Shown: piece after piece, positions 12,265 through 49,289 of the stretch
How positions within the stretch are numbered: position 1 is the stretch's first letter
How the letters are laid out: each line of letters opens with the position of its first letter
DNA from: Qipengyuania xiapuensis
Lineage (GTDB): Bacteria > Pseudomonadota > Alphaproteobacteria > Sphingomonadales > Sphingomonadaceae
Direction: 5' to 3'
Assembly (NCBI RefSeq): GCF_019711395.1
Contig: NZ_JAIGNL010000002.1
Location: forward strand, 477,001 to 541,000
Length of the DNA stretch: 64,000 nt
Notes under the pieces: model-generated
What the model was told of the DNA's origin: nothing
The model's input: the letters and a program-made list of their open reading frames with translations, nothing else
Databases searched by the model: none
Position numbers and translations under genes: made by a program

Positions 12265-12695
12265 ACGAACTTCTCTTGATGTGCACCATCGCCGGACGCC
12301 GTGCGGCAATCCCTGCGGTCGAGGTGCAGTCGGTGATCGAGATCGAGAACATCACTCCCATCCCGGGCACGCATGATTTCATCTGCGGCCTGACCGCGCT
12401 GCGGAGCCAGGCGCTGACCGTGATCGACAGCTCGCTCGCGCTCGGCATCGGACATCCTTGCGATTCGAAGGACCAGCGCGCCGCCGTGGTCGATATCGAC
12501 GGGCATCTCTACGCGATCCTCGTCGACGAAGCGCATGACGTGGGAGAGGCCCGCAGCGAGCCCGTCGCCGTTCCTGGGGGATTTGGCGAAGGTTGGCAGC
12601 GCGCCGCCAAGGGAATGGTCGAAACCGACGGAGGCCCTGCCCTCCTCGTCGACATACCGCAGCTCGTCTCGGGGCCGATACAGGCCGCAGCTTAA
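12261..12695 (+). CDS. cheW: Chemotaxis coupling protein
   Basis: A 144-residue single-domain CheW that links chemoreceptors to CheA. Visible family features are the first-barrel strand FAIPAVEVQSVIEI-like region (near residues 12-28), the GLTALRSQALTVID strand near 46-58 and the VDEAHDVGE strand near 92. Start and stop overlap with cheA as ATGA, so its synthesis is coupled to the kinase. Length is typical. Confidence 0.93.
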   Translation: MNELLLMCTIAGRRAAIPAVEVQSVIEIENITPIPGTHDFICGLTALRSQALTVIDSSLALGIGHPCDSKDQRAAVVDIDGHLYAILVDEAHDVGEARSEPVAVPGGFGEGWQRAAKGMVETDGGPALLVDIPQLVSGPIQAAA

Positions 12696-12702
12696 GCGAA
12701 AA

Positions 12703-12710
12703 GTTACCGC
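12703..12710 (+). promoter_or_regulatory. GTTACCGC element before cheY
   Basis: A variant of the GTT(T/A)ACC element seen before the other chemotaxis transcripts, 41 bases upstream of the cheY ATG in the 56-base gap after cheW. It is one base shorter than the other copies, so the match is weaker. Confidence 0.25.
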
Positions 12711-12751
12711 CTGCCTGTAGAGCAGGGTCGAACATCAGAGGGATCGTTAGA

Positions 12752-13117
12752 ATGAAAACCTGTCTAATCGTCGATGATTCGCGCGTTATCCGTAAGGTTT
12801 CGCGTCATATTCTCGAAACGCTCGGCTTCTCGGTCGACGAAGCGGAAAACGGCCAGGAAGGCCTCAATAAGTGCATGGAAAGCATGCCCGACGTTGTCCT
12901 GCTTGACTGGAACATGCCCGTCATGACCGGCATCGAGTTCATCACCCAGCTGCGCCAGCGTGACGGTGGCGACAAGCCCAAGGTCGTGTTCTGCACCACC
13001 GAGAACGACGTCGCCCACATCCGCGAGGCAATCAGCGCGGGCGCGGACGAATACGTCATGAAGCCGTTCGATCACGAAACGCTGCAGATCAAGCTCCAGC
13101 TCGTCGGCATGGCCTGA
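12752..13117 (+). CDS. cheY: Chemotaxis response regulator, single receiver domain
   Basis: A 121-residue receiver-only protein. Acidic pocket D8-D9, phosphorylation site D52 (LLDWNMP), switch Thr near 83 (CTTEND) and K104 (MKPF) are all present. Phosphorylated by CheA, it would act on the flagellar motor switch or serve as a phosphate sink. The ATG at 12752 follows an AGAGGGATCG ribosome site. It is separated from cheW by 56 bases and followed by cheB after 17 bases. Confidence 0.94.
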   Translation: MKTCLIVDDSRVIRKVSRHILETLGFSVDEAENGQEGLNKCMESMPDVVLLDWNMPVMTGIEFITQLRQRDGGDKPKVVFCTTENDVAHIREAISAGADEYVMKPFDHETLQIKLQLVGMA

Positions 13118-13134
13118 ACCGGGGGGCACGAGCC

Positions 13135-14229
13135 GTGGTGACCGCCCTCCGCTCAGACAGGATAGTGAATTCGGTCAGCAAGCCCGCGGCAAGGCCCGTG
13201 CGCATCATGCTGGTCGACGATTCGCTCACCGTGCGCACGGTTTTCTCGCGCATGCTGCAGCGCGAGGGCAACATGCAGATCGTGGCCAGCGCGGGCACGG
13301 CCGAGGTCGGACTGCGCGAGCTGCGCAAGCACCCTGCTGACGTTATCCTGCTCGACCTGGAGATGCCCGGCATGGGCGGTCTCGAGGCGCTTCCGAAGAT
13401 CCTTGCCGCCTCCCCTTCGACCAAGGTCCTGGTGATCTCGTCGCTGACGGCGGAAGGCGCGGAACACACGGTCGAAGCCCTGCGCATGGGCGCTGCCGAT
13501 ACCATGCTGAAGCCGCAGCCGGGCGGTTTCAACGACGAGTATCGCGAGCAGCTGATCGGCAAGATCCGCGCGCTTGCCGGCCTTGCCCCGCACGAATTGC
13601 CGAAGGGCTCGGCTCCGCACCCCACGAAACGTACTGCAGGCAAGCGCCCGCAGGTTCTCGCGATCGGAGCCTCGACCGGAGGCATCCACGCCCTGAACCT
13701 TTTCCTGCGCCAGGTGCCGAAGAACTTCGATCTACCGATCCTGATCACCCAGCACCTTCCCGCCAGCTTCATCCCCGTGTTCGCACAGCAGATGACGCTC
13801 GCCTCGGGCCGCCAGGCAGTCCTCGCCGACGAGGACGTGGAAATCAAACGCGGCCAGATCGTGATCGCGCCGGGTCATGGCCACATGGTCGTTCGCAAGC
13901 GCGCCGGTCGTTTCCTGACCGGCCTTGCCTACCATCCGGTCAAGAGCGGCTGCATGCCCTCGGTCGACCCGATGTTCGATACGGTGGCCGAAGCCTTCGA
14001 CGGGCAGGTGGCAGGCATCCTGCTGTCGGGCATGGGCCGCGACGGCACCGAGGGGGCGGATTCGATCATCGGGGCAGGCGGATCGATCTACGCACAGAAC
14101 GCAGACAGCTGCGCCGTATGGGGCATGCCGCGCGACGTTACCGAGCGAGGTCTGGCAACGGCGGTTCTGCCGCCAGCCGAACTCGCAGACAAAGTATTGG
14201 CCAGCGCGGGAGCAGACGCATGGCACTAG
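13135..14229 (+). CDS. cheB: Chemoreceptor protein-glutamate methylesterase
   Basis: A 364-residue CheB that removes methyl groups from receptor glutamates and deamidates glutamines. The N-terminal receiver (about 20-140) has phospho-acceptor D74 (LLDLEMPGMGG). The C-terminal esterase has the serine triad S180 (GASTGG), H207 (TQHLP) and D303 (GMGRDG). The frame begins with two adjacent GTG codons at 13135 and 13138; either may be the start. The stop overlaps cheR by ten bases. Confidence 0.94.
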   Translation: MVTALRSDRIVNSVSKPAARPVRIMLVDDSLTVRTVFSRMLQREGNMQIVASAGTAEVGLRELRKHPADVILLDLEMPGMGGLEALPKILAASPSTKVLVISSLTAEGAEHTVEALRMGAADTMLKPQPGGFNDEYREQLIGKIRALAGLAPHELPKGSAPHPTKRTAGKRPQVLAIGASTGGIHALNLFLRQVPKNFDLPILITQHLPASFIPVFAQQMTLASGRQAVLADEDVEIKRGQIVIAPGHGHMVVRKRAGRFLTGLAYHPVKSGCMPSVDPMFDTVAEAFDGQVAGILLSGMGRDGTEGADSIIGAGGSIYAQNADSCAVWGMPRDVTERGLATAVLPPAELADKVLASAGADAWH

Positions 14230-36325: not shown

Positions 36326-37114
36326 GTGACCGACAATGCAGTGACGCAGGAAACGGGCGAAAAGCCGTTAGAGATCAGCGACGCCAAGCCGCTCGGCTGG
36401 GGGCGCTTCGTTCTCCAGTTCGTCTCCATCGCCTTCGTCTATTTCGCCGCGCAATTCCCGCCGGTCCTGATGTGGGGCTACACCAACGAACAGGGCGTCT
36501 TCACGATTAGCTCGACAGGTGCAGCCGTATCGACCGCGCTGGGCATGGCGGCCGCACTGCTCGTCGCGTGGATGTGGTTGCGCAAGGACGGGGCGCTGGG
36601 CGAAGCCTGGAACCTGAAGGCCCCTGCGAGCTGGACACGCACGCTGCTGATTGCGGCGGGTGCAACAATCGCGATCATCATCTGGTTCACGGTCGGCAGC
36701 ATGCTGCTTTCGGCCCTGGGGCTGGAAACGCCCGACGTCGGCGAAGTGCTAGGCTGGGTGACCGAAAGCCCGTTCCACTTCGTCCTGTGGATCCTGCTTG
36801 TCGCGGTTTTCGCTGCGGGGTTCGGCGAGGAGCTGCTCTGGCGCGGCTTCCTGATGGACCGCCTCTCGCGGCTTGGCGGCCTTCGCGGCAGCATGTGGCT
36901 GATCATCCTGATCCAGGCGGCATTCTTCGGCCTGCCGCACCTCTACCAGGGGCTTGGCGGCGTGATCATCACCGGCGTCGTGGGCATCGGTTTCGGCTGG
37001 CTGCGCTATCGCTGCGGCGGGAACCTGTGGGCCTGCATCATCGCGCACGTTGCGGTCGACGTAATCATGATGAGCCTGTCCTATGCCGGCAAGCTGGGCA
37101 TCGTGCCGACCTGA
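36326..37114 (+). CDS. CPBP-family intramembrane metalloprotease
   Basis: A 262-residue protein with about seven membrane segments. The CPBP/Abi motifs are all present: GFGEELLWRGFL (paired Glu and Arg), FFGLPHLYQG (His) and IIAHVAVDV (His and Asp). These place a metal site inside the membrane. The family includes CAAX-type prenyl proteases and bacteriocin self-immunity proteins; the target here is unknown. The GTG at 36326, ten bases after a GAGGAG ribosome site, is chosen over an upstream TTG inside the terminator. Confidence 0.85.
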   Translation: MTDNAVTQETGEKPLEISDAKPLGWGRFVLQFVSIAFVYFAAQFPPVLMWGYTNEQGVFTISSTGAAVSTALGMAAALLVAWMWLRKDGALGEAWNLKAPASWTRTLLIAAGATIAIIIWFTVGSMLLSALGLETPDVGEVLGWVTESPFHFVLWILLVAVFAAGFGEELLWRGFLMDRLSRLGGLRGSMWLIILIQAAFFGLPHLYQGLGGVIITGVVGIGFGWLRYRCGGNLWACIIAHVAVDVIMMSLSYAGKLGIVPT

Positions 37115-37224: not shown

Positions 37225-38385
37225 ATGGATAGTTTTACCGACGTCTGGCAATATATGCCGCACGGCATGTGCCTGCTTTGGCAGCCTTGGCTGCTCTTGC
37301 TTTGGGCGGGCTCGGACATGCTGATCTTCCTGAGCTATTCGGCAATCCCCATCGCGCTGCTTACGGTCCTGCGCCAGCGCAAGGACATCCCGCATGCCGG
37401 GCTTGTGGTGCTGTTCGCTTCCTTCATCCTCCTGTGCGGTCTTACCCACCTGCTCTCGATCGTGACGCTGTGGTACCCGATCTATCCCTATGTCGGACTG
37501 GTCAAACTGGCGACGGGCGTGGTCTCCGCCATTACCGCCATTACCCTGTTCCGGCTGATCCCGACGCTCATCGCATTCCCCTCGCCTGCCGAGCTCAGGG
37601 AGACCAACGACAAGCTGCGCGACGAGATCGCGGCACACGAGAAGACGCTCGCTACGCTCGAGGCGACCGTGGCCAACCGGACGGCCGAACTGCGCGAGGC
37701 GAATGCCAAGCTGTCGGTCCAGGCACGCGAGGCGGTCCACCGCAGCGCCAACCTGCTCTCGGTCGTCTCATCGCTCACGAAGCAGACCGCGCGGGGACAT
37801 TCCAACACTGACGAATTCATCGACACGCTGACGGGGCGGATCCGTTCGCTCGCCCTTGCAACATCCACGGTGATGCGCGGCACCGACCAGTATTCGGGCG
37901 ATCTCGTCGCCGTCGTGCGCGAGCAGCTCGAACCGCTGCTCATGGCGCATCCCGATGCGGTCGAGATCAAGTCGGGCTCGCTTGAAATCGCCCCCGACGC
38001 AGCGCAGCAGATCAGTCTCGCGGTTCACGAGCTTGCGACCAACGCCCAGAAATACGGGCTATCGCAGTCCGGCGAGGGCGCGATCTCGCTTTCGTGGGAA
38101 GTGTCGGGCCGCGATGCCGACCAGCGCTTCGTTCTCCAGTGGGAAGAGACGCTGAGCGAGGCTGAACGGGAGGGCTGGGAAAGCGATGCAGGCGGTTTCG
38201 GCACCAAGCTGCTGACCCGCATCGTCCCGCAGATGCTCGGCGGTACGGCCACACGCAGGATCGACGATGGAAAGCTGACCTACCGTCTCGAGGCACCAGC
38301 TTCCTCTGTCCTGGCAGATCCCGAGGACCGCGAGGCAGGCAAGATGGCGACGCGCCTGGTGGACGAGAACTTCGGACTTAGCTGA
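37225..38385 (+). CDS. Ethylene-receptor-type sensor histidine kinase (HWE family)
   Basis: A 386-residue membrane histidine kinase. Three N-terminal helices (about 20-50, 57-80, 85-112) form an ETR1-like ethylene-binding domain. D31, Y38, P42, C71 and H75 fall at the spacing of Arabidopsis ETR1 D25, Y32, P36, C65 and H69, where C65 and H69 hold the copper that binds ethylene. A coiled coil (about 125-170) leads to an HWE/HisKA_2 phosphoacceptor helix (VHRSANLLSVV; Ala replaces the usual Lys) and an ATPase domain (HELATNAQKYG; GGFGTKLL). No response regulator lies beside it. The ATG at 37225 follows a GGGAGGGG ribosome site. Ligand identity is inferred, not shown. Confidence 0.82.
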   Translation: MDSFTDVWQYMPHGMCLLWQPWLLLLWAGSDMLIFLSYSAIPIALLTVLRQRKDIPHAGLVVLFASFILLCGLTHLLSIVTLWYPIYPYVGLVKLATGVVSAITAITLFRLIPTLIAFPSPAELRETNDKLRDEIAAHEKTLATLEATVANRTAELREANAKLSVQAREAVHRSANLLSVVSSLTKQTARGHSNTDEFIDTLTGRIRSLALATSTVMRGTDQYSGDLVAVVREQLEPLLMAHPDAVEIKSGSLEIAPDAAQQISLAVHELATNAQKYGLSQSGEGAISLSWEVSGRDADQRFVLQWEETLSEAEREGWESDAGGFGTKLLTRIVPQMLGGTATRRIDDGKLTYRLEAPASSVLADPEDREAGKMATRLVDENFGLS

Positions 38386-49180: not shown

Positions 49181-49289
49181 ACGGGATTTCCCTCCGTTAT
49201 TGCCAAGCCAACGTGCAGGCGCGCAGCGCGTTCCAGCCGGCGTAATTCTCGCATTGCGCCCCGGCAGTCACCGCAATAGAACCTTGGCC

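Follow-up and report, generated by a model that had tools for sequence, protein, structure and literature searches.

Does an alphaproteobacterium couple a sensor of the plant ethylene-receptor type to an HWE histidine kinase? The question is raised by a gene on the forward strand of a 64,000-nucleotide stretch of Qipengyuania xiapuensis DNA (the window), which a preliminary description had read, from the sequence alone, as a fusion of these two parts. The open reading frame begins with an ATG at 37225 and its stop codon ends at 38385, giving a protein of 386 amino acids; the sequence directly upstream of the ATG is GGGAGGGG. Including the window copy, 16 intact members of this type are considered here.

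The preliminary description had proposed searching the N-terminal part with an ethylene-receptor profile, and the resulting match lies far beyond chance: Pfam ETR1_N (PF25487; Ethylene receptor 1-like, N-terminal domain) covers residues 23-117 (37291..37575, +) with 105.6 bits against a cut-off of 27 (E 1.6e-30). Pfam HWE_HK (PF07536) covers residues 169-248 (37729..37968, +), including the candidate phosphoacceptor His172, with 50.3 bits against a cut-off of 22.8 (E 4.1e-13). Between them lies a helical linker (residues 118-168; 37576..37728, +), which falls in a single predicted helix spanning residues 121-191 and differs in length between relatives. The ATP-binding boxes follow at 38026..38202 (+) and match those of the LOV-HK kinase in 5epv/6ph4. 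All kinase boxes are intact, namely HRSAN (172-176), HELATNAQKY (268-277), WEE (306-308) and GFG (324-326), and with them all the HWE hallmarks, a phosphoacceptor His-Arg, an N-box with Glu (in HELATN) and W-x-E. A sequence search of the PDB matched the second half of the protein only, best to the Brucella LOV-HK (5epv/6ph4) and then to Erythrobacter EL346 (4r39/4r3a). The best NCBIfam matches were kinase models, every one far under its own cut-off, and no Pfam match to PAS or HisKA (PF00512) was found in the 386-residue protein up to E 1.

Adding six to the numbering of the ethylene-binding residues of plant ETR1, the seventh of which we take to be Y32, gives D31, Y38, I41, P42, I68, C71 and H75, and all seven are present in the window protein. 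ETR1 requires seven residues for ethylene binding (PMC11819568), and D25, I35, P36, I62, C65 and H69 are named as such (PMC6586836, PMC11819568). The counterparts read in the window protein are Asp31 (ETR1 D25; 37315..37317, +), the group Tyr38, Ile41 and Pro42 (Y32, I35, P36; 37336..37350, +) and the helix 2 copper/ethylene residues Ile68, Cys71 and His75 (I62, C65, H69; 37426..37449, +). D31, Y38, P42, C71 and H75 thus stand where the preliminary description had put them, joined by I41 and I68; the equivalents of I41, P42 and I68 lie beside the ethylene site and are not copper ligands (PMC6586836). In AzoEtr1 of Azospirillum brasilense the counterparts are D35, C75, H79 and K98 (PMC11819568); Lys94 in helix 3 of the window protein (37504..37506, +) is spaced from D31 as K98 is from D35, because both pairs are 63 residues apart. 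In an alignment of 15 members (the window copy, L001-L008 and L068-L073), the seven binding residues and K94 are invariant in 15/15. Invariant columns make up 54 of 117 in residues 1-117 versus 33 of 269 in the rest (Fisher p 1.9e-12), and the sensor is therefore much more strongly constrained than the kinase. Curated profiles scoring above their cut-offs, 7/7 binding residues and conservation in relatives bear out the reading of an ETR1-type sensor on a bacterial HWE kinase, and by all the sequence tests run the window protein is a genuine ethylene-binding-domain protein on an HWE kinase.

AlphaFold2 was run on the window protein and on L001-L008. It predicts helices at residues 21-51, 58-81 and 88-117, followed by the unbroken helix 121-191 running into the kinase (mean pLDDT 71.2, pTM 0.45, residues 10-15 below 50), a layout in which three predicted transmembrane helices carry the Cys/His pair in the second. 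Judged from helix positions alone, the spacings in helix 1 (i, i+7, i+11) and helix 2 (i, i+4) are compatible with one site, and because of this helix spacing only we infer that D31, C71 and H75 would meet there. Foldseek placed 5epv (E 7.9e-12) and 6ph4 as the best PDB matches, and among the 50 PDB matches that it listed there was no ethylene-binding domain, the matches being kinases, phytochromes and similar proteins instead.

How widespread is this arrangement? A search for related loci returned nine, one of them a relic. ETR1_N profile matches were found in 20/199 genomes of the family, 28/385 of the class and 29/398 of the phylum (28 over the cut-off), in three samples that overlap. The HWE form, with an HRSxN H-box, is patchy, occurring in 7 of the 199 family genomes (L010, L023-L028), and the profile search gave no ETR1_N match in three genomes of the same genus (G078, G146 and G198). 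It is carried by Erythrobacter/Qipengyuania, by Cognatishimia and by a plasmid of Blastomonas. A sensor tree was built from 81 domains that all bear the HGxC motif described below; it has only 109 columns and many open forks. In it the 16 HRSxN rows fall into a single clade (support 100/98), which recurs in each of the 200 bootstrap trees tested. Adjoining this clade is L142 (96/88), an EBD-PAS-HWE protein by Pfam; the other sensors stand with HisKA-type or HisKA_2-type kinases, typed by motif and not by profile, or alone. Three short proteins of 138-142 amino acids (L033, L037, L041) seemingly consist of the ethylene-binding domain alone, with no kinase. Plasmid p2 of Novosphingobium sp. ES2-1, typed as conjugative, encodes another ethylene-type kinase near cas9, its gene overlapping that of a response regulator (L112:2950-4417). 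A link to photosynthesis was considered and rejected: the reaction-centre family occurs in 34/198 family genomes (33 over the cut-off) and in one of seven carriers (G001), and is absent from the window genome.

Flanking the gene are one that is CAAX-protease-like (36329-37111, +) and nusG (38998-38462, -). With secE behind nusG on one side and rplK and rplA (35139-33966, -) on the other, secE, rplK and rplA being recognized by eye, the kinase gene sits inside a split secE-nusG/rplK block, as had been described. Eight of the 16 intact members share this place (window, L001, L002, L003, L004, L005, L006 and L069, with L003 placed by the rplK side only and L005 by the nusG side only), and so does the relic L009. 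In the other eight (L007, L008, L068, L070-L073, L108) no rplK/nusG neighbors occur within the fetched stretch, and no common partner gene was seen beside the kinase among these members. Among 30 nusG loci taken from the family sample, 28 lack even a trace of the gene, the remaining two being the window itself (L078) and L093, which is the same place as L069. The relic, in Qipengyuania mesophila (L009:6001-6257), is a deletion product at the rplK-nusG place, in which a dozen or so codons survive from the start of the gene and about sixty from its end, in different frames. The relic shows at least one loss, and with so few nusG loci carrying it the gene has a patchy distribution. Synteny was rejected as a clue to function, since only 8/16 members share the rplK-nusG place and 28/30 family nusG loci are empty; the location seems to reflect a common history and not a functional tie. 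The copy on plasmid pBSY18_2, typed as mobilizable, of Blastomonas sp. RAC04, an algal phycosphere isolate, lies about 650 bases from an integrase gene (L108:312-4095).

The domain had been described as established in plants and cyanobacteria, which holds for those groups and is incomplete, as it has also been shown in Azospirillum: in AzoEtr1 the first 130 residues bind ethylene with high affinity, and disrupting the receptor reduces both biofilm formation and the colonization of roots (PMC11819568). Direct evidence for non-plant ethylene receptors comes from very few microbes (PMC11819568). The window protein shares with AzoEtr1 the N-terminal ETR1_N domain on an alphaproteobacterial histidine kinase, the core residues and HGxC, and over 99 % of a 125-residue query an A. 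brasilense plasmid copy shows 46 % identity. Unlike the window protein, which has no PAS domain, an HWE kinase and no adjacent regulator, AzoEtr1 has PAS, a HisKA-type kinase (HEMSQP, read by eye in the MTCC4038 plasmid copy, whose broken frame was read in separate pieces) and a regulator overlapping downstream; the window gene thus lacks the AzoEtr1-type make-up of PAS, HisKA kinase and adjacent regulator. SynEtr1 and other cyanobacterial receptors have the same sensor domain, one Cys in the N-terminal tail and a histidine kinase, but SynEtr1 is also responsive to UV-A and has a known regulator, slr1213 (PMC6682694). Four cyanobacterial plasmid sensors, with kinases left untyped by profile, stand apart from the HWE clade in the tree. 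Plant ETR1, compared through published residue numbers, shares the seven binding residues, an equal Asp-to-His spacing and three helices, whereas plant receptors have two N-terminal cysteines forming disulfides (PMC6682694, PMC6586836) where the window protein has HGxC, and the window protein carries an HWE kinase. The kinase half resembles the HWE LOV kinases of Brucella (5epv/6ph4; sequence E 7.5e-15 to 5epv, in addition to the Foldseek match) and Erythrobacter litoralis EL346 (4r3a), but those have a LOV blue-light input and the window protein a membrane ethylene-type input and an H-box without Lys.

What might such a protein do? HWE/HisKA2 kinases drive the alphaproteobacterial general stress response (PMC12148442), and in Erythrobacter litoralis HWE LOV kinases phosphorylate LovR in vitro, two of the three phosphorylating PhyR too (PMC4438053). 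The window genome has a phyR-nepR-ecfG locus of its own at C1:615090-618240 with an HWE kinase alongside (C1:616742). PhyR_sigma2 matches lie at C1:618079, 615090 and 824366 and a NepR match at C1:615305; of the PhyR_sigma2 matches we label the first PhyR and the other two EcfG-type, judging by where they lie and how long their frames are. Given ethylene binding by AzoEtr1, the role of HWE kinases in the stress response and the presence of this PhyR locus, the best reading of the window protein is an inner-membrane receptor of the ETR1_N family that probably acts as a Cu(I)/ethylene-gated HWE kinase, feeding PhyR and/or a free single-domain regulator. Within its three transmembrane helices each subunit would bind a single Cu(I) through Cys71 and His75, opposite a helix bearing Asp31 and Tyr38. 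Ethylene arriving at the copper would shift the helices, the unbroken helix 121-191 would relay the shift to the kinase and alter autophosphorylation of His172, and the phosphoryl group would pass to PhyR, the regulator of the general stress response, and/or to a free single-domain regulator encoded elsewhere in the genome. That the partner is PhyR or a LovR-like regulator in particular we judge to be about an even chance.

The alternative that survives best retains the ethylene receptor and replaces the general stress response by a dedicated single-domain response regulator as its output. AzoEtr1 has such a partner, of 135 amino acids (PMC11819568), the Blastomonas plasmid copy adjoins two response regulators (P0003, which passes the Pfam cut-off, and P0002, which does not), and receiver matches fall in open frames of 133 and 137 amino acids in the window genome (L114 and L116). 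P0003 has no close counterpart in the window genome, where it has 11 matches at 28-40 % identity. The preliminary description had noted the absence of an adjacent response regulator; the neighbors, CAAX-protease-like and nusG, and a search of the window open frames with a receiver profile (built from four receivers from L108, L109 and L112) agree with it. In the window this profile matched solely two adjoining open frames at 12539-14226 (+), and it recovered receivers in its three source loci. It detected none in the flanking sequence fetched for the other 14 chromosomal members (L001-L008 and L068-L073; the flanks being short for L005, with 496 bases upstream, and for L070, with about 200 bases on one side), which, together with the PhyR locus, speaks against a dedicated partner and leaves this alternative somewhat short of an even chance. 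No promoter of the EcfG type (GGAAC-N16/17-SGTT) was found upstream of the gene, the sole match in the window lying at 49210-49234 against a chance expectation of 1.34, and a sigma-70-type promoter gave no match upstream of the gene either.

A second alternative keeps the copper site and changes the signal to Cu(I) status, CO or another small alkene. Cu(I) sites can take other ligands, and higher plants are not the source of some carriers, which are from water or the surfaces of algae, for example the saline planktonic MAG L005 and the Blastomonas isolate from an algal phycosphere. This alternative has to contend with the retention of all seven residues, including I41, P42 and I68 (PMC6586836), and with AzoEtr1, which has the same residues and HGxC and binds ethylene with high affinity (PMC11819568), and we regard it as unlikely. 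Copper and ethylene are quite probably the ligands of the sensor, and the protein may let the cell sense ethylene.

The kinase half carries the variation in this clade. The preliminary description had remarked on the replaced Lys in the phosphoacceptor helix, and HRSAN is indeed what is read; yet Lys is present in just 2 of the 16 intact members, both from Cognatishimia, the fourth H-box residue being Ala in 5, Gly in 7, Ser in 1, Lys in 2 and Arg in 1. The seven HWE kinases in the window's own genome have the H-boxes HRVKN, HRVRN, HRVKN, HRVKN, HRTDN, HRIKN and HRSAN. Since the Lys varies both in the clade and among these kinases, its absence is ordinary variation and no sign of decay. A decaying or signaling-inactive receptor, its sensor retained and its kinase being lost, could be argued from the missing Lys, from the loss of His and N-box in one member (L073) and from the relic L009, but is very improbable given that the kinase boxes all stand in the window protein, that the phosphoacceptor His is kept in 15/16 members and that the Lys position is variable, including HRVRN and HRTDN in the same genome. 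That one member (L073:7191-8351, genome G180) has an intact sensor, a phosphoacceptor His changed to Gln and no N-box, and is possibly a kinase-dead bacterial ethylene receptor, reminiscent of plant receptors, which include ones with degenerate kinases. In L057 and L058, HWE-like H-boxes (HRSKN and HRSQN) lie behind an ETR1_N-like membrane domain without the copper residues. For the Cu(I)/ethylene-gated switch as a whole, we count the two profile matches, the invariant binding residues, the sensor clade (100/98), a kinase nearest to the HWE LOV kinases, the PhyR locus in the same genome, the LovR and PhyR phosphorylation by the Erythrobacter litoralis kinases, ethylene binding by AzoEtr1 and the Blastomonas regulators in its favor, and against it the lack of flanking receivers, of a close counterpart of P0003 and of an EcfG-type promoter, the loosely conserved kinase half, the moderate model and the patchy HWE form.

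Ahead of helix 1 the window protein has the motif HGMC (His13-Gly-Met-Cys16; 37261..37272, +), with Cys 15 residues before Asp31, invariant in 15/15 aligned members. Among 88 related loci from those listed, drawn from the overlapping family, class and phylum samples and from plasmids, the copper core being set by pattern, His-[Gly/Ala/Ser]-x-Cys, its Cys placed exactly 15 residues ahead of the Asp, is present in 69/69 bacterial loci with the core and in 6 of 19 without it (6 with, 13 without), counts that are inflated by the relatedness of the loci. When seven fragments or poor matches (L029, L031, L053, L141, L146, L147, L148) are dropped, the core-bearing loci remain at 69 with and none without, and the 12 full-length relatives that lack the core divide into 8 without the motif and 4 with it (L137, L140, L144, L154). 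Thinned to 53 sequences, the His and the Cys are the sole zero-entropy positions besides those that define the core. The Pfam profile begins past HGxC, and the loci were therefore not selected by the motif. Plant receptors are not known to have HGxC. Cyanobacterial receptors have one N-terminal Cys versus two in plants, and the same job, a disulfide, has been suggested for it (PMC6682694); the parts of that article available to us do not mention the motif His alongside the Cys. Because a disulfide alone leaves the invariant His unexplained, we propose, tentatively and as rather less than probable, that bacterial receptors may have a further site of metal type (H13, C16) where helix 1 opens to the outside, perhaps loading or sharing Cu(I), which would make them chemically unlike the plant ones, and that the HWE clade would couple the sensor to the general stress response.

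As AzoEtr1 had already shown an ethylene receptor in an alphaproteobacterium, only the HWE combination is unreported in the literature searched; the pairing of an ETR1_N sensor with an HWE kinase was not found in the open-access literature covered. HGxC provides a concrete difference between bacterial and plant receptors. With 386 amino acids for receptor and HWE kinase together, the protein offers a compact system in which ethylene binding could be linked to kinase output in vitro, and its relatives occur in culturable bacteria near Erythrobacter litoralis, a model for HWE signaling. The finding also raises the possibility that ethylene acts on a switch of stress response or lifestyle in bacteria.
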